Assembly: GCF_002795805.1 (NCBI RefSeq)
Contig: NZ_CP018799.1
Coordinates: 861,001 to 925,000, forward strand
DNA from: Mariprofundus aestuarium
GTDB lineage: Bacteria; Pseudomonadota; Zetaproteobacteria; Mariprofundales; Mariprofundaceae
Direction: 5' to 3'
DNA length: 64,000 nt
A program made the translations under genes and the position numbers. How positions within the stretch are numbered: position 1 is the stretch's first letter; every line of letters starts with the position of its first letter. Below are positions 40,323 through 60,103 of the stretch, piece after piece. The notes under the pieces are model-generated. The model ran no database searches, had not been told where the DNA came from, and saw only the letters and a list, made by a program, of their open reading frames with translations.

Positions 40323-42344
40323 TTAGTCAGCTGCGATACAGTCACGGTTATAGATGCGGTACTGCTGCTTGCCAGAGGTTTTTGCCAGATACATCGCCGT
40401 GTCGGCCTTCTTAACCAGTTCATCGGCATTCTGACTGTCATCCGGTCCAATGGCGATACCGATACTGCAGCCAATGTCGCATGCGATCTCAGCAGCCATG
40501 GTCGGTGTGCTGAAGCATTTCAGGATTTTATCGGCTACCTGAACCATGTCTTCGAGATCAATCAGGTTTTCAAGAATGATGATAAATTCATCACCGCCAA
40601 CGCGGGCCACTGTGTCAGCACTGCGAACCAGCTCACCCAACCTATTGGCAATTTCAATCAGCAGTGCATCACCGACATCGTGGCCAAAGTTATCATTAAT
40701 CGCCTTGAATCCGTCAATATCAATAAACATCAGCCCGACCTTATATTTATCGCGGATCGCATGCGCCAGTGCATGCTCCAGCCGGTCGGTGAAGAGGGTA
40801 CGGTTCGGTAGCCCGGTCAACTGATCGTGGTGGGCCATGTGGGATAGCCGCTGCTCGATATTTTTCTGCTCGGAGATGTCGTAAAAGATGCTGACGAAGT
40901 TGCTGATTTCACCTGCATCATTGCGTACTGCGGTTATTGAGAGCCATTCGGGATAGACTTCACCGTTTTTACGCTTGTTCCAGATCTCACCAGCCCACAT
41001 TCCTTCACTGTGTAGTGTGCTCCACATCTTACGGTAGAAATCTACCGTTTGGCGACCGGAGGAGAGGATGCGCGGGTTATTTCCGATCACTTCCTCACGG
41101 CTATAGCCGGTAATGTCGCAGAAGGCCGGATTAACCAGTACGATATTGGCCTTGTCATCACAGACTAGGATGGCATTGGAGTCACTCTCCATCACCTTGG
41201 CGGCCAGGCGCAGGTCTCGCTCCGTGCGTTTCTGGCGCGTGATATCACGACCTGCATGGACGATCTGGCAGGCCGCGTTTTCCCCTTGCTGCATGATGGT
41301 CACTGTAATCAGCACAGGTATTTTGTGGCCCGACTTATGGAGAAATTCGCGTTCAATGCTTTTGATCTCCCCGTTCTTGGCTAGCTGTTTCTCCTCTTCG
41401 GGAGTCAGTTCAATGTCACCACTGATCAGGCTTTCCAGAGGGGTTCCTGTTAGCTCCTCCAGTTCATGGCCAAGTGTTGTTAGTGCGGCCGGGTTGGCGA
41501 ACTCGATTTTGTACTCTGTATCGGTAACGAAGAGCATTTCACCCATGGAGCTCATAATGGTTTCGAAATATTCACGCGACACGGTGGAGCGTTTCAGGGC
41601 ATCGGTCATGTGGTTGAAGGATTCACCGAGTTTTCCAATTTCTGTACGGGTTAACAGGTTCACTCTGGTGTTCAGGTCACCCTCTGCAATATCAGTTGCC
41701 GCCTCTGTAAGGTGCTCGAGCGGACCTAGAATCTGTCTGCGAATGAAGAGGGAGAGCAGCAGGCCGATCACAAATGCGACGGAGAGCCCGTAGAAAATTG
41801 TATCTGAGCGCGCCTGTTCGATACGCTCCTGAGCATGGGCTACGGAGGTGGTGATTCGCAGCACTCCGCGAACCTTTGAAGCGTCATATCCGTGGCAACT
41901 CATGCACTCGTCACCTGCGTTGATCGGTAGCAGGAAGGTGAGCTCTCCAGTTGCCTCATTCAGCTCATTGAACTGTTGACCATTCACAACCTTGGCAAAT
42001 GACGTGGCGTCAATATCAGTAACCTTGCGTGGGGATCTCAGGGGGCGACTGAAAAGCTCACTCTCCAGGTGGGCATTGACGTTATTCAGGGTTTGACCAT
42101 CCAGAAATGCTTCTGTCTGGTCCTTGCGAAGCACCTGTACGGTGAGTAGCTCCGGGCTTTCGGAGATGCGGTCAAGCCAGTCGATGGCATAAGAGGCGTT
42201 GCCGGAGAGCATCAGCGTTTGCAGGCTGTTGGAGAGGCCATCAGCCATGAAAGAGGCGCGCTCTACCTCCTCCTGATAAATCGACTCCTGCTGTTCAGTG
42301 AACAGCAGGTACTGGCTGACTGCAAATGTAGCCAGAAGCAACAC
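40323..42344 (-). CDS. Membrane diguanylate cyclase with CxxCH sensor, HAMP, two PAS and GGDEF; N-terminus probably frameshifted
   Basis: The product is 673 residues as read from GTG 42344. The order is part of a membrane segment and a periplasmic sensor with a haem-c motif CMSCH (147-151, Tll0287/DUF3365-like). A second membrane segment (about 182-202), HAMP, two PAS domains and GGDEF follow. The active site is GGDEF, with an RxxD inhibition site (RSAD) before it. The start is doubtful: no Shine-Dalgarno precedes GTG 42344, and an in-frame TGA lies 30 bp upstream. In the +1 frame, reading from CTG 42423 after AAGGGG gives a basic N-terminus ending RLNTRF that would join the membrane helix if one T of the run 42360-42363 were absent. 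Confidence 0.88.
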   Translation of the reverse strand: MLLLATFAVSQYLLFTEQQESIYQEEVERASFMADGLSNSLQTLMLSGNASYAIDWLDRISESPELLTVQVLRKDQTEAFLDGQTLNNVNAHLESELFSRPLRSPRKVTDIDATSFAKVVNGQQFNELNEATGELTFLLPINAGDECMSCHGYDASKVRGVLRITTSVAHAQERIEQARSDTIFYGLSVAFVIGLLLSLFIRRQILGPLEHLTEAATDIAEGDLNTRVNLLTRTEIGKLGESFNHMTDALKRSTVSREYFETIMSSMGEMLFVTDTEYKIEFANPAALTTLGHELEELTGTPLESLISGDIELTPEEEKQLAKNGEIKSIEREFLHKSGHKIPVLITVTIMQQGENAACQIVHAGRDITRQKRTERDLRLAAKVMESDSNAILVCDDKANIVLVNPAFCDITGYSREEVIGNNPRILSSGRQTVDFYRKMWSTLHSEGMWAGEIWNKRKNGEVYPEWLSITAVRNDAGEISNFVSIFYDISEQKNIEQRLSHMAHHDQLTGLPNRTLFTDRLEHALAHAIRDKYKVGLMFIDIDGFKAINDNFGHDVGDALLIEIANRLGELVRSADTVARVGGDEFIIILENLIDLEDMVQVADKILKCFSTPTMAAEIACDIGCSIGIAIGPDDSQNADELVKKADTAMYLAKTSGKQQYRIYNRDCIAAD

Positions 42345-48579: not shown

Positions 48580-48608
48580 TTGAGGGTGGGGGGTGGGTGA
48601 GCTATACT
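48580..48608 (+). promoter_or_regulatory. Promoter of first tandem ATPase gene
   Basis: TTGAGG (48580-48585), a 17-bp spacer and TATACT (48603-48608) form a good sigma-70 match. The same layout occurs before the second ATPase gene. The spacer is G-rich (GGGTGGGTGAGC). A leader with GTGCCGTTCGGCT follows in both. Confidence 0.6.
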
Positions 48609-48669
48609 GATAGTAGGCAGCTCTTTTTTGAGAGTGCCGTTCGGCTACTGCTCATAGGAGGAATATATT

Positions 48670-50001
48670 ATGGAGACCTTTCCTTTTGAGCAACTCAAGG
48701 GCCAACCACAACTTAACAGAGTCTTAAGTCGCTGGCCGAAAGCGCCGAAATCGATCGAAGAGACGGGGCTAAGACACTCATTTATTGTTGATCTGGTAAT
48801 CAAACATATCTACACGCTGGAAGAGTTTACGCTGGAAGATGTGGTCGATCGGGTGAAGTTGCCGACCACGATTGTCGATGGGGTTCTCGAGGAGATTCAG
48901 CACAATAAGTTGATCGAGGTAAAGGGCTCATCCGGGCTTGGCAGGCTCTCCAATCATTATGTGATGACCGATCTCGGTACCAGTCGCGCAAAGGGGTTAA
49001 TCGAAATATCACATTATATCGGTCCCGCTCCTGTGTCGCTTGAGGCCTATCGCCGGATGATTGAGCTGCAGCCGGTTAAAAATATCAAGGTGAAAGAGTC
49101 TGATGTGGAGGGTGCATTTTCCCACATGATTCTTACCAGTGATATGCTGGCCCAACTTGGCCCGGCAGTGAATTCAGGCTGTGCACTGTTCCTCTACGGC
49201 CCTCCCGGTAATGGAAAAACTTCGATTGCCGAAACGATTGCGCGCATGATGCCGGATCGGGTCTACATTCCCTATGCGGTGCTGGTCGATGACGATGTGA
49301 TCATACTTTACGACCCGGTAACCCATGTGGCCGTAGATAAGGAGGATTCGTACAGTGAAGAGAATGAGCTGATTAAGCACGCTTTTCCCGATACCCGCTG
49401 GCTGGAGATTGAACGCCCGATTGTGATGACCGGAGGCGAACTTGATCTCGACATGCTTGATCTTGAGTTTAATCCAATCACCCATTTCTATCAGGCTCCG
49501 TTACAGATGAAGGCCAATAACGGCATCTTCATCGTTGACGATTTCGGTCGCCAGCGGATGGATCCGCAGGACCTGCTCAATCGCTGGATTGTACCGCTCG
49601 AACGGCACACTGATTTTCTCTCGCTACAGAGCGGTATAAAGTTCGAGATTCCTTTTGATCAGCTGGTGGTGTTCGCTACCAATATTGAGCCTAAGAAGCT
49701 GGTGGATGAAGCGTTTTTGCGTCGTATTCGCTACAAGATCAAGGTCGATCACCCGGCCGAGCATGAGTTTGAACAGATTTTCAGGGGTGTGTGCGAGCTC
49801 AATGGTATTGAGTATCGGCAGGAGATGGTCACGTTCCTGTTGGAGAATTTCTATCGTCTTTCGGGAAGGCCCCTGAATGCCTGTCATCCTCGCGATCTGA
49901 TCAGTCATATTATCGACGATGCGGATTATCACTGTTATGAGCCGAGGTTGACGGAAGCGAACCTGACCACGGCATGGAAAACCTACTTCGTAGAGCTGTA
50001 G
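48670..50001 (+). CDS. AAA+ ATPase, first tandem copy, without MshEN-like segment
   Basis: A 443-residue cytoplasmic protein. After a short leader (1-27) comes a winged-helix-like domain (about 50-105: FTLEDVVDRVKLPTTIVDGV). The AAA+ core has Walker A GPPGNGKT (177-184), a Walker B-like strand IFIVDDFGRQ (286-295, Asp-Asp rather than Asp-Glu), sensor-1 Asn338 (VFATN) and a likely arginine finger in FLRRIRYKI (350-357). The C-terminal lid has SGRPLNACHPRDL. The insert with VDDDVIILYDPVTH and GGELDLDMLDLEF is distinctive. I do not recognise a named function; chaperone-like remodelling is possible. AGGAGG precedes ATG 48670. It is paralogous to the next gene. Confidence 0.88.
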   Translation: METFPFEQLKGQPQLNRVLSRWPKAPKSIEETGLRHSFIVDLVIKHIYTLEEFTLEDVVDRVKLPTTIVDGVLEEIQHNKLIEVKGSSGLGRLSNHYVMTDLGTSRAKGLIEISHYIGPAPVSLEAYRRMIELQPVKNIKVKESDVEGAFSHMILTSDMLAQLGPAVNSGCALFLYGPPGNGKTSIAETIARMMPDRVYIPYAVLVDDDVIILYDPVTHVAVDKEDSYSEENELIKHAFPDTRWLEIERPIVMTGGELDLDMLDLEFNPITHFYQAPLQMKANNGIFIVDDFGRQRMDPQDLLNRWIVPLERHTDFLSLQSGIKFEIPFDQLVVFATNIEPKKLVDEAFLRRIRYKIKVDHPAEHEFEQIFRGVCELNGIEYRQEMVTFLLENFYRLSGRPLNACHPRDLISHIIDDADYHCYEPRLTEANLTTAWKTYFVEL

Positions 50002-50098
50002 GCGATTTGCAGGGCGGTTGAGCTCCGAAGAAGCGAGCTGCTGTGAACCAGGTGGATCGCATAACAGTAGAGCTGCCCCATTCAGAATTATATCCAGT

Positions 50099-50127
50099 TT
50101 GAGAGTGGGGGAGCAGTGCACTATACT
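50099..50127 (+). promoter_or_regulatory. Promoter of second tandem ATPase gene
   Basis: TTGAGA (50099-50104), a 17-bp spacer and TATACT (50122-50127). It is the near-identical counterpart of the promoter at 48580. It lies about 95 bp upstream of the start codon, with the same GTGCCGTTCGGCT leader element at about 50153-50165. Confidence 0.6.
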
Positions 50128-50222
50128 GGTAGTAGTTCACGTTATGTTTGACTGTGCCGTTCGGCTTATTTGTGCATCGATGAAAATGCTGTCCGGTTGC
50201 CGCTCTTGTTCCGGAGGTGTTT

Positions 50223-51665
50223 ATGGAAAGGCTTCTTGGTGATCAACTCAAGGACAAACATCTACTTACCGACGACCAGCTGAAACAGGCGCTCGAGCGC
50301 CAGCGACTGCACGGTGGACGCCTCGGTACTAATCTTGTCGCACTCGGATTTTTAAGCGAAGATCAACTGGGTTCATTCTTCCATCGCAAGCCACTCTCGC
50401 CGCAGTCGGTCGAAGAGACGGGCCTCCGCCTCTCTTTTATCATCGATCTGGTGACCAAGCACCTCTTTACCCTTGGCGAGTTCACACTGCATGATGTGGT
50501 CGAAAGAGTGAAACTGCCGACGCCGATCATCGATGAGGTACTGGAGGAGATCCAGCGCAACCATATGGTCGAGGTGAAGGGGTCATCCGGCTCATCGGGG
50601 TTTGGCCGAATGTCCTATCGTTATATTCTGACCGATCGCGGTAAAGCCCGTGCGCAGGAGTTGATTGGAATTTCACGTTATGTCGGACCTGCCCCTGTGC
50701 CGCTGCATGCTTATCGTCGCATGATTGAGGTGCAGACGGTCAAAAACATTCTGGTGAAGGAGTCATCTGTGCTGGAGGCCTTTTCACACCTGATCGTTGG
50801 TGGTGAGCTGCTAACCCGTCTTGGTCCCGCGATCAGCTCAGGTCGCGCACTGTTTCTCTACGGTCCTCCGGGAAACGGTAAAACGGCTATCGCCGAAACC
50901 ATTGCCAGGGTGATGCCGGAGACAGTCTATATCCCTTATGCAGTGCTGGTCGATGATGATGTGATCATGCTTTACGATCCGGTGACCCATGAGGCCGTGA
51001 ATCAGGAGGGTTCGGTTGCGGCCGAAAACGAACTGATCAAACGCGATCTTCCCGATTCCCGCTGGCTTGAGATCAAGAGGCCGATTGTGATGGCCGGAGG
51101 CGAACTCGATCTCGGCATGCTTGATCTTGAGTTCAATGATATCTCCCGCTTTTATCAGGCGCCGCTGCAGATGAAGGCCAATAATGGCATCTTCATTATT
51201 GACGATTTCGGCCGCCAGCAGATGGATCCTCAGGATCTTCTCAATCGCTGGATTGTACCGCTTGAACGTCACACTGATTTTCTCTCGCTGCAGAGCGGCA
51301 TGAAATTTGAAATTCCGTTCGATCAGCTGGTGATCTTCTCCACCAATCTTGAACCGAAGAAACTGGTGGACGAGGCATTCCTGCGCCGTATCCGCTATAA
51401 GATCAAAATTGATCACCCGAGTGAGGATGAGTTCGAACGGATTTTTCGGGCGGTATGCGAATCCAATGAGGTCGAATACCGAAAGGAGATGGTCGATTTC
51501 CTGATGGAGCGCTTTTACCGTCGCTCAGGAAGACCATTGAATGCCTGCCATCCGCGCGATTTGATCGATCACATCATTGATGATGCGCACTACCACTGTT
51601 ATCAGCCGGAGTTGACCGAAGCGAGTCTAACCGCTGCGTGGGAAACCTATTTCGTAGAGCTTTAG
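50223..51665 (+). CDS. AAA+ ATPase, second tandem copy, with N-terminal MshEN-like (c-di-GMP-binding-type) segment
   Basis: The 480-residue paralogue of the preceding gene keeps the winged-helix region (about 83-135) and the same AAA+ motifs (Walker A near 215, IFIIDDFGRQ near 325, IFSTN, FLRRIRYKI). Its N-terminus is different: HLLTDDQLKQALERQ is followed by RLGTNLVALGFLSEDQL (33-49) and SFFHRK. This closely follows the MshEN/T2SSE-N consensus RLGxxLxxxGxxxxxxL, known to bind c-di-GMP in MshE-type ATPases; the final Leu and Gln are replaced by Phe and Lys. c-di-GMP sensing is therefore inferred, not shown. ATG 50223 follows GGAGG by 5 nt. An HD-GYP gene is next downstream. Confidence 0.88.
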   Translation: MERLLGDQLKDKHLLTDDQLKQALERQRLHGGRLGTNLVALGFLSEDQLGSFFHRKPLSPQSVEETGLRLSFIIDLVTKHLFTLGEFTLHDVVERVKLPTPIIDEVLEEIQRNHMVEVKGSSGSSGFGRMSYRYILTDRGKARAQELIGISRYVGPAPVPLHAYRRMIEVQTVKNILVKESSVLEAFSHLIVGGELLTRLGPAISSGRALFLYGPPGNGKTAIAETIARVMPETVYIPYAVLVDDDVIMLYDPVTHEAVNQEGSVAAENELIKRDLPDSRWLEIKRPIVMAGGELDLGMLDLEFNDISRFYQAPLQMKANNGIFIIDDFGRQQMDPQDLLNRWIVPLERHTDFLSLQSGMKFEIPFDQLVIFSTNLEPKKLVDEAFLRRIRYKIKIDHPSEDEFERIFRAVCESNEVEYRKEMVDFLMERFYRRSGRPLNACHPRDLIDHIIDDAHYHCYQPELTEASLTAAWETYFVEL

Positions 51666-51853
51666 GCGAGATATGGATGGGGTTTGTTCGCACATAAACA
51701 GATAGGTGTGACCCGGGTGGTAATCCTACTGTTATTAAAAATATGATCTGGTCTATGGGGCTTTTTCCAGAGGTTCTCTTGGCTGAAGCTGAAAGGTTGA
51801 TAAATTTTGATATGTAAGCTATAGATTCCAAAGGTATGGAAGGAAGAGGGGCT

Positions 51854-53011
51854 ATGTTTGACTCAATGAGTGGAGATGATGCAAAAACCGCACTGAATTT
51901 TCTTTTTTCAGCAGCGCTCGATATTGAGGTGGAAACGGACCATAAGCAGTTCATTGAAAAGGTTCTGTTTCATGCAAGGAAAATATTTAATGCATCGGCT
52001 GGCAGCATCGCATTGATTGATGGCGACCACCTGCAATTCATGACACTTCAGAATGATGAAATTGACATCAGCCAACTTATTGGAAGTCATCACAGGATTC
52101 CTCTCCGTAAAGACAGCATTGCCGGCTATGTCGCGCTTACAGGAGAAATGCTTCATATCAATGATCCATACAACCTGCCAGAAGGTGTTCCATACCGGTT
52201 CAATTCAGCCGTTGATAAGAAGACTGGATTCAGAACCGAAGCAATCCTTGCTGTTCCATTGCGTCACCCCGCTGAAGGTGTGATCGGAACACTCGAAATT
52301 TTGAATCCAAGGGACAAGATATTCCATGAACTAAATATCGGTATTGCCAAGGGTTTTTCATCTATTGCATCTGCAAACATCGTCAGTAAACGCCTTCAGG
52401 GGTCGCTGAAGAGAGCCTACCTGGAAACGCTGGTCCGTCTGGGACTTGCCGCTGAATATAAGGACGAAGACACATTCCAGCATATTCAGAGAATCAGACA
52501 TTCATCCAAGATCATTGCACGCCAGCTTGGTTTTTCTGAGGAGGAGCAGGATAACATCTTTCATGCATCAGCCATGCATGACGTTGGCAAGGTGAGTATC
52601 CCGGATGGGATACTGAACAAGAAAGGAAAACTCGATGCAGAAGAGTGGAAAATCATTCAATCCCACCCGGAAAAGGGCGCATCAATACTGGCAGGTTCCG
52701 ATACAAAGATACTCCAGATGAGTGAGGAGATCTCCAGGTATCACCATGAAAAGTGGAATGGCAAGGGATACCCCGAAGGGCTGAAGGAGGAGCAGATTCC
52801 ACTTACTGCCAGAATTGTTGCGGTTACCGATGTGTTTGATGCACTTGTGCAGGAGAGACCCTACAAAAAAGCCTGGCCTTTACAGGACGCGCTTGACCTG
52901 ATTCAGAGAGAACGAGGCGAGCACTTTGATCCCATGGTTGTGGATGCTTTTTTTGCCTGTAAGAATGAGATTGTTAATGTTCAGCGGGTCAATGGGACGA
53001 TTTTTGAATAG
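51854..53011 (+). CDS. GAF/HD-GYP cyclic di-GMP phosphodiesterase
   Basis: The 385-residue cytoplasmic protein has a GAF-like sensor (about 15-185: SAGSIALIDGDHLQFMTLQND, GYVALTGEMLHINDPY, EAILAVPLRHPAEGVIG). A helical signalling linker leads to an HD-GYP domain with HIQRIRHSSKIIA, the HD pair SAMHDVGKVSIPDGIL, SHPEKGA and the signature HHEKWNGKGYPEGL. HD-GYP enzymes hydrolyse c-di-GMP to pGpG or GMP. ATG 51854 has AAGGA nine bases upstream; ATG 51836 is an alternative. It follows the second ATPase gene by about 190 bp and is probably separately transcribed. Confidence 0.93.
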   Translation: MFDSMSGDDAKTALNFLFSAALDIEVETDHKQFIEKVLFHARKIFNASAGSIALIDGDHLQFMTLQNDEIDISQLIGSHHRIPLRKDSIAGYVALTGEMLHINDPYNLPEGVPYRFNSAVDKKTGFRTEAILAVPLRHPAEGVIGTLEILNPRDKIFHELNIGIAKGFSSIASANIVSKRLQGSLKRAYLETLVRLGLAAEYKDEDTFQHIQRIRHSSKIIARQLGFSEEEQDNIFHASAMHDVGKVSIPDGILNKKGKLDAEEWKIIQSHPEKGASILAGSDTKILQMSEEISRYHHEKWNGKGYPEGLKEEQIPLTARIVAVTDVFDALVQERPYKKAWPLQDALDLIQRERGEHFDPMVVDAFFACKNEIVNVQRVNGTIFE

Positions 53012-53031: not shown

Positions 53032-54651
53032 CTATTTAACGGCGAAAACCTGAATGGGTTGTGATTTGCCGTGCACATGGGTTTCAGGCATTGCTTCTAT
53101 AGTGATTGTTCCCTCAGTTGCCTTGGCAACATCTTCACTGATAAGGATATCCGTGCCCCATTTTTTGTTCAGTCCCTCGATGCGTGAGGCCATGTTCACC
53201 GTGTCGCCGATCACGGTGAATTCCATGCGCTCCTGACTGCCCACACTACCAGCTACCATTTTTCCGCAGTGGATACCCATGCCGATTCTGAGCGGGTGTT
53301 TTCCCGCGTCCTCCTGAGTGATGTTGAATTCGTGCAGCGCAGCCCGCATTTTCAATGCTGCCTGAACTGCGTGATTAATATGATCCGGCTGAGGGGTAAG
53401 AACGCCGAAAACAGCCAGCAGACTGTCGCCACCAAATTTATTGATCCAGCCGCCTTCCTCCTTGATGGTAGGTTCAACAACAGAGAAGTACTGATTGAGT
53501 ATGCTGACGACCTCCTCTGCTGACATCTTTTCAGACATGGCAGTGAAATCACGGATGTCCGCAAACAGGACGCTGGCATGGACCTCCTTGCTGTCGAAGC
53601 TGGTACCGTTTTGCATGACATCATCTGCCAGCTCTTTTGCCATGTAGCGTCCGAACGCATCACGCAGTCGTTCACGCTCCATCAACTCCTTTACCATCCT
53701 GTTAAAGCGCCTGTAGATGTCGGAAAACTCATCACTTGTCCTCTCCAGCAAGGTGATGTTGAGGTTGCCCTCCTCAACTTTGGTCATGGCATCGGAGAGT
53801 TCGGAGACCGAGTCACCGGCCTCATCTGCCATGCGCAGGAAGATCATCAGCGACATAAGGAAGCCCACGGCCACAATCAGCAGCATCCAGCCGACCATGC
53901 CGGGGATAAAGCCAAGCGCGTCCTCGTATCCGAGTTGCAGCAGGAAGTGGCGAATATCGATGAGCATGGTGGTGCCCAGAATAATCATCGGAGGCAGCAC
54001 AACAAAAGTTGATACAAACAGCAGCTTGCGCCGCATATTGAGCGGAATAATGCGTTTGCGCTGTTCGGGCGAAAGTTCACCACACTGTTCATGAGCCAGA
54101 GAGACGATGTGGAACATGAGCCCGCCGACGGCATAGTATTCGAAGATGGCGTGTGCGATGCCCATCATGAGAGCAACCATAAGGGCGACGAGTGCTTGCC
54201 ACAGTTCTACGCCAAAACCCATGAAGAGGTTGCCGATGAGTGTCATCAGCGAGAAAGCCACGGCAAATGCCGGTGCTTGATATAGGAGGATGCGCCGAAC
54301 TGAATAGATCTGAAAATTCTTTGCCTGAATTGTTGCCTCTATGACGATATCGGCATCAAGCTGGTCAGAGTCTGTTTCTAAAAAGAGCCGGATCGGACGA
54401 AAGTCGCGGCGCAGAACAACCCGCCCAGCGGCATACATGCCCAAGCCTCCTGCAGGCAAGATCAGGAGTATGCCCAATAGCTGCTGATAGCTTGTCAGGG
54501 CTAACCCGAAATAGAAGAGCAGAGTACCCATGCTGACCGGCCAGAACGCACCTGCAATACAGATGGCTCGAAGCTCTTGATAGACCTCATCGCCCCCCAT
54601 GCCTGTGTAACTGATATTAAAAGGCCAAAAGAAACGCAATAAATTGTTCAT
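53032..54651 (-). CDS. Membrane-bound class III adenylate/guanylate cyclase
   Basis: The 539-residue protein has about six membrane segments in the first ~285 residues, in pairs around 33-75, 120-175 and 210-285, followed by HAMP (LSDAMTKVEEGNLNITL). The C-terminal class III cyclase domain has VLFADIRDFTAMSEKMS, with the metal-binding Asp pair, GGWINKFGGDSLLAVFG, IGMGIHCGKMVAGSVGS and GDTVNMASRIEGLNK with the transition-state Asn and Arg. The Lys in NKFGGD and an Asp-type purine pocket favour ATP, so cAMP is likely. The start follows AAGGGG. It is convergent with the HD-GYP gene. Its product could act on the cNMP-binding protein at 20.3 kb. Confidence 0.92.
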   Translation of the reverse strand: MNNLLRFFWPFNISYTGMGGDEVYQELRAICIAGAFWPVSMGTLLFYFGLALTSYQQLLGILLILPAGGLGMYAAGRVVLRRDFRPIRLFLETDSDQLDADIVIEATIQAKNFQIYSVRRILLYQAPAFAVAFSLMTLIGNLFMGFGVELWQALVALMVALMMGIAHAIFEYYAVGGLMFHIVSLAHEQCGELSPEQRKRIIPLNMRRKLLFVSTFVVLPPMIILGTTMLIDIRHFLLQLGYEDALGFIPGMVGWMLLIVAVGFLMSLMIFLRMADEAGDSVSELSDAMTKVEEGNLNITLLERTSDEFSDIYRRFNRMVKELMERERLRDAFGRYMAKELADDVMQNGTSFDSKEVHASVLFADIRDFTAMSEKMSAEEVVSILNQYFSVVEPTIKEEGGWINKFGGDSLLAVFGVLTPQPDHINHAVQAALKMRAALHEFNITQEDAGKHPLRIGMGIHCGKMVAGSVGSQERMEFTVIGDTVNMASRIEGLNKKWGTDILISEDVAKATEGTITIEAMPETHVHGKSQPIQVFAVK

Positions 54652-57652: not shown

Positions 57653-57799
57653 GGATCTGTTAAGGCAAAATGTGATGTGCGGTTAACTATCAACCATATC
57701 ATCGTCTTTATTGAATATGGTTGACGACTTAATTTCTTGAGTAAACTGCTCTATGTTTTAGCTGAACAGTAAGTGTCTTGCTGGGAAAGGGGTGATGAA

Positions 57800-60103
57800 G
57801 TGCATGCAGAGGCCCATGGTGTTCGAAAGCTGACAGTTAGTATCTTCCTATACGCATTTTCTCTTATTTTAGCCTCAACTCCAGCGGTTGCGGCACAATC
57901 ATTAGAGAGTGTTTCTTTGCAGCTTGAGTGGAAATATCAGTTTGAATTCGCCGGGTTCATCATGGCAAAAGAGAAAGGCTTCTATGAAAAGGCTGGCCTT
58001 GATGTTGAACTGATTGAGTACGAAGCTGGCATTGATGCTGTCGAACATGTACTCACTGGAAAAAGCAACTACGCCATTCATAACTCCAGTGTTGTTATAG
58101 ATAATGGGAAGCTCGAGCCTATTATTCTCCTAGCTACATACTTCCAGCAGTCACCGCTCGTTTTCGTTACATCCAAAGAGATAAAGTCACCCAGTGACCT
58201 GATAGGGAAAACGATCATGGGTACAAAGGATGAGCTTAAATACAGCTCGCTGGCGCTTCTTCTGGACCATTTTTATGTCAACAAAAATAACGCGAGTTTC
58301 TTGGGCCACAGTTTCAATATTGACGATTTCATTCAACATAAAGTGGATGCGATGACTGCATTTCGAACGAATCAGCTTTACCAGCTTGATCAGCTGAATG
58401 TACCTTATAATGTCATAGACCCGGCTGACTACGGTTTTGTCATGAGTGCGGTCAACCTGTTCACCTCTTACTCTGAAGCACTGAATCATTCCGAAAGAAC
58501 GCGTAAATTTATCGATGCATCCAATAAGGGGTGGGAATATGCCTTGGCGCACACGGAAGAGACCATTGCGATTATATATGAAAAATACTCAAAATTAAAA
58601 AGCATTGAAGCACTGGCCTATGAGGCAGATATAACCAGGGAAATGATGCTTCTGGACTTTTTTGAAATTGGAGCGACCAATAAAGAGCTGGCTTTGCGGG
58701 CAGTGAAGCAGTTCAAACACAGTGGTTTGCTCTCGGCACAGCAGGAGCCAGGCACATTCCTGTTTGATGAGGTTTTGCGCGAATTTGGCCGCAGTGCAAT
58801 ATTTACTGATAAACAAAAGCTCTACCTGCAGGATAAAAAGGTCATCAATATGTGTGTGGATCCAGACTGGATGCCCTTTGAAAGCATTCAAGATGGGGTG
58901 CACATCGGCATTGTGGCCGAGGTGTTTGATTTATTTAGGGCCCAGCTTCCGATACCCATCAAGTTGATACCAACCAAGAGCTGGCATGACTCCATTACAA
59001 AGGCAAAGCAGCGCAAGTGCGACATCTTCTCTCTGGCTTCATCTACGCCTGAGCGAACTGAATATATGGATTTTACTACGCCATATATCGACCTCCCTAT
59101 CGTTATGGCCACGACAATGGATAAATTTTTTATCAATGATATTGCAGAGGTCCTAGATGAAAAACTGGGTGTGGTGAAAGGCTATGCGGTTGCTGAAAAG
59201 CTGAGAGGTAAATATGAAAACATAAACATTGTTGAGGTGGACTCCATTACCGATGGACTGGAGCGGGTGGCCAGTGGTGAGTTGTTTGGCCACATTGATA
59301 ATTTAATGACGATTGCCGCATCGATCCAAAAGGATTTCACCGGTATTTTAAAGGTTTCGTCGCGTCTTGATGAAGGGGTGCAGTTGGCTGTAGGAACCCG
59401 CAATGATGAACCGATCTTGAGAGGGATATTCCAGAAATTAGTCGGTAATATCGATAGCGATACTCAGCAGGGAATTTTTAATAAGTGGGTATCGGTTAAG
59501 CAGGAGGTGGTAGCCGATTATACGTTCCTATGGAAGTTCTTTGCTGGTTTTTCCCTTTTAGCCCTAGGGTTCATCTATCACTTCAGAAGACTGAGTCGGC
59601 TAAACGATCAGCTGGTTATCATATCAAACACTGACAAGTTGTCCGGGCTCTATAATCGGGTGAAAATGGATTCAGTGCTCATTGAGCAAAAAGCCAATGT
59701 GGACAGGTATGGACAAGGTGTGTCACTTATCCTGATAGACATCGACTTCTTTAAAGAGATCAATGATACCTACGGCCATTCAGTGGGTGATGCAGTGCTG
59801 GTTGGATTTTCTGAGCTTATGAGAAGTAACGTACGTGCAACTGATTATGTTGGGCGCTGGGGGGGAGAAGAGTTCCTTATTGTCTGCCCTAATACTGGTG
59901 TGAACGATGCCTATAAACTGGCTGACAAGTTGCTCAAAAAGGTGCGTGATTGCACATTCGAGGGGGGCAGCAAGATTACTATTAGCGCAGGTATAGCGGG
60001 CTTCTCAAAAGAGACGAGCATCAAGGATATTTTGATCCATGTAGATACGGCACTTTATCAATCCAAGCAGGCGGGCCGCAATCAGATATCCACGTATAAA
60101 TAA
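57800..60103 (+). CDS. Diguanylate cyclase with two fused periplasmic solute-binding domains
   Basis: The 767-residue protein has a signal peptide (about 1-33, ending PAVAAQ). An NMT1/THI5-like binding domain follows (about 40-310: LQLEWKYQFEFAGFIMAKEK, GFYEKAGLDVELIEYEAGID). Next comes a family-3 amino-acid-type binding domain (about 340-570: VINMCVDPDWMPFESIQDG, DIFSLASSTPERTEYMDFTTPY). A membrane segment near 583-600 leads to a GGDEF domain with GGEEF active site and RxxD site (RATD). It should sense periplasmic small molecules and make c-di-GMP. The start chosen is GTG 57800 (AGGGG 7 nt upstream). Confidence 0.9.
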   Translation: MHAEAHGVRKLTVSIFLYAFSLILASTPAVAAQSLESVSLQLEWKYQFEFAGFIMAKEKGFYEKAGLDVELIEYEAGIDAVEHVLTGKSNYAIHNSSVVIDNGKLEPIILLATYFQQSPLVFVTSKEIKSPSDLIGKTIMGTKDELKYSSLALLLDHFYVNKNNASFLGHSFNIDDFIQHKVDAMTAFRTNQLYQLDQLNVPYNVIDPADYGFVMSAVNLFTSYSEALNHSERTRKFIDASNKGWEYALAHTEETIAIIYEKYSKLKSIEALAYEADITREMMLLDFFEIGATNKELALRAVKQFKHSGLLSAQQEPGTFLFDEVLREFGRSAIFTDKQKLYLQDKKVINMCVDPDWMPFESIQDGVHIGIVAEVFDLFRAQLPIPIKLIPTKSWHDSITKAKQRKCDIFSLASSTPERTEYMDFTTPYIDLPIVMATTMDKFFINDIAEVLDEKLGVVKGYAVAEKLRGKYENINIVEVDSITDGLERVASGELFGHIDNLMTIAASIQKDFTGILKVSSRLDEGVQLAVGTRNDEPILRGIFQKLVGNIDSDTQQGIFNKWVSVKQEVVADYTFLWKFFAGFSLLALGFIYHFRRLSRLNDQLVIISNTDKLSGLYNRVKMDSVLIEQKANVDRYGQGVSLILIDIDFFKEINDTYGHSVGDAVLVGFSELMRSNVRATDYVGRWGGEEFLIVCPNTGVNDAYKLADKLLKKVRDCTFEGGSKITISAGIAGFSKETSIKDILIHVDTALYQSKQAGRNQISTYK

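Follow-up and report, generated by a model that had tools for sequence, protein, structure and literature searches.

Many bacteria use Tad/Flp pili to sense and attach to surfaces, and the parts listed in published Tad gene models form a fixed set. The loci that encode them comprise tadA-G, tadV, tadZ, rcpA-C and flp. A further described system close to the locus studied here is formed by the MshE/PilB-type ATPases of type IV pili and type II secretion systems (5htl, 3jc8, 6f8l). These resemble the proteins described below in having an N-terminal MshEN domain on an ATPase and, at the family level, a link to a filament. The MshEN motif has been defined as RLGxx(L/V/I)(L/V/I)xxG(L/V/I)(L/V/I)xxxxLxxxLxxQ, present in two copies (Wang et al., PMC5013675). 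The same small module is the input domain of an unrelated catalytic core in the glycosyltransferase NfrB, which binds c-di-GMP with a Kd of about 1 µM (PMC8669469).

The stretch of DNA analysed as a whole (the window, 64,000 nucleotides) spans positions 861001-925000 of the one-contig, 2.54-Mb genome of Mariprofundus aestuarium (G000). It contains two tandem paralogues, P1 and P2 (74–75% identity), which are the sole two members of their AAA+ family in this genome. Unlike the MshE/PilB-type ATPases, P2 has a classical AAA+ core (P-loop, DD Walker B) outside the T2SSE/VirB11 fold family, a winged helix, no MshEN C-subdomain and degenerate binding motifs. The output of P2 is an AAA+ ATPase, in contrast to that of NfrB, and its binding of c-di-GMP is a possibility. 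Genes of the AAA+ family lie inside Tad/Flp clusters in many genomes, but the family is not among the components given in the available part of the Tad model (PMC6668835), and P1 and P2 themselves are separated from the tad locus of G000 by approximately 0.6 Mb. The AAA+ core shares its fold and motifs with Lon/MoxR/RuvB-like proteins (8p49, 4zpx, 1g8p, 8efv), but P1 and P2 have neither a Lon protease domain nor a VWA partner, and the identity is low (about 15%). The likeness to IetA (NF042959) is confined to parts of the AAA+ core; P1 and P2 score far below the cut-off and have no adjoining protease partner.

Open full-text papers yielded no description of a winged-helix AAA+ protein encoded within tad loci, nor of one fused to MshEN, and no open papers on 8p49 were found. 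In the accessible portions of the gene model for Tad by Denise et al., and of studies on tad loci in rhizobia, Aeromonas and Vibrio, no such AAA+ component is named. The AAA+ family is apparently undescribed. The domains and the pilus class are known; the combination of MshEN with a winged-helix AAA+ ATPase, and the unnamed pilus component, are apparently new.

P1, P2 and their surroundings

The features of the locus are listed in Table 1. For P2, an alternative GTG start at 50217 would give 482 aa. The motifs GPPGNGKT, IFI[IV]DDFGRQ (DD-type Walker B) and FLRRIRYK and the sensor-1 Asn were complete in both P1 and P2. Walker A, Walker B, sensor 1, the conserved Arg and the fold of an AAA+ ATPase were found, as determined from motifs, invariant columns of the alignment and fold matches. 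A role of P1 as a dead subunit was rejected, since all its ATPase motifs were intact. In the AlphaFold model of P2 (pLDDT 85, pTM 0.77), an N-terminal helical module is followed by a winged helix and the AAA+ core. The closest solved folds to the core were the uncharacterised Pyrococcus protein 8p49, archaeal Lon ATPase, BchI and RuvB, and the winged helix was found in every aligned family member. Pfam assigned generic AAA domains only, no NCBIfam family spanned the whole of either protein, and PHROG matches were rejected as generic clamp-loader/ATPase resemblance. The T2SSE catalytic domain of PilB/GspE-type ATPases had no Pfam match in P1 or P2, whereas TadA of the same genome matched it at 9e-68. 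An initial annotation of this DNA had described two paralogous ATPases in which a winged-helix-like domain is joined to an AAA+ core that is not of the PilB type. Both points were borne out, the former by the motifs, the identity of about 75% and the P2 model, the latter by the missing T2SSE match and the AAA+ fold.

Table 1. Features of the P1/P2 locus, numbered from the first position of the window.
Feature	Position	Strand	Evidence
Promoter-like site of P1, TTGAGG-N17-TATACT	48580..48608	+	Consensus scan; shared by all six genus copies in upstream alignment
Palindrome GCCGTTCGGC between promoter-like site and P1 start	48636..48645	+	Promoter-plus-palindrome pattern
P1, winged-helix AAA+ ATPase without MshEN module, 443 aa	48670..50001	+	ORF; AAA motifs; no NF053729 match; tree nesting in MshEN-fused clade
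Promoter-like site of P2, TTGAGA-N17-TATACT	50099..50127	+	Consensus scan; upstream alignment
Palindrome GCCGTTCGGC between promoter-like site and P2 start	50156..50165	+	Upstream alignment; pattern search
P2, MshEN-winged helix-AAA+ ATPase, 480 aa from ATG	50223..51665	+	ORF; AlphaFold model; AAA motifs
MshEN module of P2, residues 1-56 (motif I 4-27, motif II 33-56)	50223..50390	+	NF053729; 5htl; fold match; motif table; dN/dS
Winged-helix region of P2, about residues 69-150	50427..50672	+	AlphaFold secondary structure
AAA+ core of P2, about residues 151-480	50673..51662	+	Fold matches to 8p49, archaeal Lon, BchI and RuvB; invariant residues
P3, putative GAF-HD-GYP phosphodiesterase	51836..53011	+	Pfam; catalytic motifs; neighbourhoods

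The genes adjacent to the pair encode a TatD nuclease and the HD-GYP protein P3; no subtilase partner was seen. Based on its motifs (HDVGK, HHEKWNGKGYP), P3 is predicted to be a canonical HD-GYP phosphodiesterase, and Pfam assigned HD_5 (7.9e-40) and GAF. Within the genus, an HD-GYP gene was located beside P2 in G000 and G008 only and was absent next to the orthologues in G015 and G016; none was seen beside other fused loci among those listed. HD-GYP as a fixed partner was consequently rejected. Local turnover of c-di-GMP by the adjacent enzyme, as initially proposed, was not borne out, with the adjacency kept in one sister genome (G008), and a functional link of P3 to P1 and P2 through local signal turnover is unproven. 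Two more GGDEF-type genes flank the region (40323-42344, minus strand; 57773-60103, plus strand). Since several such genes lie around the locus, the presence of a single c-di-GMP enzyme next door says little about partnership. The HD-GYP gene is convergent with a HAMP-class III nucleotide cyclase gene (53032-54651, minus strand; Guanylate_cyc 2.4e-27); this gene pair was retained in G008 (L132).

A promoter-like site followed by a palindrome was present upstream of each of the two ATPase genes. Coordinate 48580, at which the initial annotation began, is the -35 box of the P1 site, a candidate promoter by position and conservation only. The promoter-plus-palindrome pattern was observed twice in the window, with 0 occurrences expected by chance. 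TTGAGR-N17-TATACT followed by the palindrome GCCGNNCGGC was seen upstream of both copies and of most genus orthologues (L132-L134 regions), and the strict pattern had no other occurrence in the genomes searched. A regulatory element common to the AAA+ genes and the tad locus was rejected, since the upstream pattern occurred only at the AAA+ genes. Candidate roles for the palindrome are an operator and a hairpin in the 5' UTR.

The MshEN module of P2

The NCBIfam model NF053729 (MshE-related c-di-GMP domain; cut-off 38 bits) matched residues 7-56 of P2 (482-aa numbering) with an E-value of 2.6e-15 and 55.9 bits. P1 gave no match to this model, confirming that only the second copy carries MshEN. 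All 22 family N-termini tested matched NF053729. The MshE structure 5htl was matched to P2 at 5.8e-7 by a single-sequence search and at 4.2e-19 by a profile of 22 family N-termini. The MshEN likeness suspected for the P2 N-terminus was also found in a predicted model of residues 1-60, for which the top fold match was the MshE/c-di-GMP complex (5htl; TM 0.83, rmsd 0.7 Å, 52 columns). Foldseek E-values for this model were weak, which we ascribe to its short length. The register, the NF053729 match and the TM of 0.83 to 5htl place the module in the MshEN fold family, which is defined by two 24-residue motifs with a 5-residue linker in a four-helix bundle. The initial annotation had given motif II alone. 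Motif II was confirmed; motif I is also present, at the canonical 5-residue linker, but is degenerate.

The module of P2 reads LLGDQLKDKHLLTDDQLKQALERQ - RLHGG - RLGTNLVALGFLSEDQLGSFFHRK. Motif I is without Arg1, the hydrophobic residue at position 7 and Gly10, and motif II is without Gln24, while Gly3 of both motifs, Gln24 of motif I, and Arg1 and Gly10 of motif II are kept. The set of canonical contact residues (Arg1, Gly3, Gly10 and Gln24 in both motifs) is hence incomplete in P2. In a hand count of 23 fused proteins, the Arg of motif I was absent in 22 and the Gln of motif II in all 23, while the Gln of motif I was kept in 22, the Arg of motif II in 18, and the two Gly3 in 23 and 21, respectively. 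Fold-forming hydrophobic residues were retained while ligand-contacting residues went, family-wide and one-sidedly. As judged from these sequences, one-sided motif wear is a trait of the whole family. The dN/dS of the module between P2 orthologues was ≤0.12, these ratios being rough as synonymous sites were near saturation, and therefore the module is maintained, under purifying selection.

Comparable changes have been described in other proteins. In PilF GSPII-A, losses of such residues accompanied absent binding, and measurable binding was regained only with the motif II Arg, both Gln and structural changes together; GSPII domains without binding are known (PMC12002112). In NfrB, single changes were tolerated and more than one was needed to abolish function, a Gly mattering most (PMC8669469). 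Binding of c-di-GMP by P2 may occur, at about even odds, and is not to be assumed. As for the c-di-GMP-gated machine that had been proposed initially, the MshEN fold held, but gating is doubtful because P2, like the family at large, has lost residues that matter for binding in other proteins (PMC5013675, PMC12002112).

Distribution of the family and the link to Tad/Flp pili

Gene neighbourhoods were analysed at 20 family loci, picked from the own-phylum match list with their neighbours unseen beforehand, in stretches of up to 20 kb. Genes for TadA, TadB, TadC and CpaE were located within the stretch at 19 of these loci, often in the order cpaA-AAA-cpaB. The exception was G235, in which cpaB was located elsewhere in the genome. 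Independently annotated Rhizobium plasmids encoded a secretin, TadE/G, a CpaE-like protein, CpaF and two T2SS-F genes, then an 'AAA family ATPase'; the gap before the AAA+ gene was about 15 bases, and the annotated tad operons close with it. The link to tad was likewise observed at loci of Acidobacteriota, Gemmatimonadota, Chloroflexota, Desulfobacca, Nitrosospira and Oxalobacteraceae. In the phylum (299 genomes), 30/32 carriers of the family and 78/267 non-carriers had a cpaB match that exceeded the curated cut-off; outside the genus, the numbers were 28/28 and 78/248 (both hand tallies, uncorrected for kinship). Residence in tad clusters and co-occurrence with cpaB were thereby both seen at the family level. 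Genomes with the MshEN fusion had cpaB in 15/16 cases, and only 4/17 fused loci outside the genus were within 8 kb of tad genes.

G000 has a complete tad locus at about 1.514-1.527 Mb, encoding Flp, CpaB, secretin, TadE, TadZ, TadA, TadB, TadC and TPR proteins, with no AAA+ family gene inside. Within the genus, cpaB was present only in G000 and G008, which are the two genomes with the P1-P2 pair and the HD-GYP gene, and searches for TadZ and TadA in seven genus genomes gave the same pattern; the pair does not adjoin the tad genes, however. No CpaB, TadZ or close TadA was found in G015 (99% complete) and G016, which kept a single constrained P2. Therefore, the protein can be useful without a Tad pilus, and these two sister genomes limit the Tad claim. 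As to a conserved link of the homologues with secretion genes or c-di-GMP enzymes, one was found with Tad pili at the family level, but not with HD-GYP.

The protein was detected in G008, G015 and G016 besides G000 and was absent from the other genus genomes searched. G008 (L132) had the same tandem pair with the HD-GYP gene adjoining; its upstream copy retained the module, with the second RLG changed to SLG. In a tree of 113 members, P1 was sister to this upstream copy (support 99) and nested in the MshEN clade. Since P1 is placed inside the fused clade, it has lost the MshEN module, most likely by internal deletion after the duplication, and the promoter-like region was duplicated along with the gene. 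The sensorless paralogue of the initial annotation thus stood, as a secondary loss.

Outside the genus, the MshEN-AAA+ fusion occurred at 17 further loci, in Desulfuromonadia, Nitrosomonadales/Oxalobacteraceae and several alphaproteobacterial loci. On the 113-member tree, the fusion fell in three groups with four label changes, one of which was the loss in P1. The combination had been called unrecognised, which is fair for the literature searched; the fusion is, however, widespread rather than unique to this locus. A Desulfuromonas metagenome-assembled genome (L053, 6495-9419) had its own tandem MshEN-AAA+ pair, the first copy of which had HLG instead of RLG in motif II. This pair arose by a separate duplication and, as with P1 and P2, one of its copies shows wear.

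Proposed role and accompanying genes

We propose, with a probability of roughly 0.6, that P1 and P2 are accessory remodelling AAA+ ATPases that serve Tad/Flp (type IVc) pili and are missing from the lists of their components; for the family as a whole, our confidence in this role is higher. The proteins would form an ATP-driven, Lon/MoxR-like ring that remodels or chaperones a protein of the Tad machine, and the winged helix would make protein contacts. The MshEN module of P2 would be an N-terminal input or docking unit, which might either still sense c-di-GMP with lowered affinity or have turned into a surface that binds a partner, as the N-domains do in GspE/PilB-type ATPases; the odds between weakened sensor and docking surface are about even. 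P1 would be a module-free copy acting without MshEN input, either by itself or in rings shared with P2. An AAA+ gene that is conserved in the tad clusters of several phyla yet absent from published lists would constitute a new component. Against a Tad-accessory role, G015 and G016 keep a constrained P2 without CpaB, TadZ or close TadA, P1 and P2 are distant from the tad locus in G000, and the remodelling is a role that we infer.

The module may be purely for protein docking, as are GspE-type N-domains, and bind no nucleotide, so that P2 would be a remodeller without c-di-GMP control; we give this somewhat under an even chance. The family-wide, one-sided loss of ligand contacts with fold-forming hydrophobic residues kept, the constraint on the module nonetheless, and the existence of non-binding GSPII domains (PMC12002112) agree with docking, but the mostly retained motif II Arg and Gly3 pair would fit a remaining ligand, and NF053729 matched every N-terminus tested. 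The same retained residues, with the motif I Gln, argue for a P2 that is truly c-di-GMP-gated via MshEN, with the sensorless P1 joining it in the ring and the neighbouring HD-GYP enzyme lowering the local signal. The MshEN fold, the NF053729 match, the constraint on the module, the joint retention of the pair and HD-GYP in G008, and the tolerance of NfrB to single changes (PMC8669469) are also consistent with gating. We nevertheless regard it as unlikely: P2 is without Arg1 and Gly10 of motif I and Gln24 of motif II, most of this wear is family-wide, comparable losses in PilF GSPII-A went with no binding (PMC12002112), and the G015 and G016 orthologues have no HD-GYP gene next to them. Equally tentative is an unnamed, dedicated AAA+ remodeller of Tad pili with a working c-di-GMP sensor in several lineages, with P1 and P2 assembling into rings that either have or lack sensors. 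The TadA motor of G000 has no MshEN domain, and therefore c-di-GMP input on the AAA+ ATPase would be a separate route. With a working sensor, c-di-GMP would act on Tad pili directly, and a c-di-GMP-type module on an AAA+ ATPase would give this signal of surface life a direct route to the pilus that bypasses its motor. The degenerate module is also a testable example of how a c-di-GMP receptor fold may take on a new use.

Two further explanations concern the AAA+ protein itself. A DNA-binding regulator, with the winged helix on DNA and the AAA+ core remodelling transcription complexes, would agree with the winged helix in all aligned members and with a weak Pfam TrmB match (E=0.03). We consider it improbable: DNA binding by the winged helix is unlikely, as most of the 113 members have a neutral or acidic residue at the recognition-helix position (20% positive), a sigma-54-activator architecture is missing (Sigma54_activat E=0.0098, below cut-off), and the conserved context is a pilus assembly cluster. 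An IetA-like anti-phage ATPase is more improbable still, even though PADLOC IetA models matched at about 4e-12 and NF042959 at 2.6e-10. The latter match reached 40 bits against a cut-off of 510, the neighbours are the TatD nuclease and HD-GYP genes with no subtilase in sight, and the context elsewhere is tad; the anti-phage identity was rejected as a core resemblance far under the curated cut-off.

Other genes were observed near the tad and AAA+ loci. G000 and G008 each had a MoxR/CbbQ-like ATPase gene close to the tad locus (L159, 3800-6926; L161, 19545-19901), with another gene beside it in L159. At 17 loci, nearly all from Chloroflexota (e.g., L090, L100 and L107), a glycerophosphodiester phosphodiesterase-like gene directly followed the AAA+ gene, and Ser/Thr kinase and FHA genes were located farther along.
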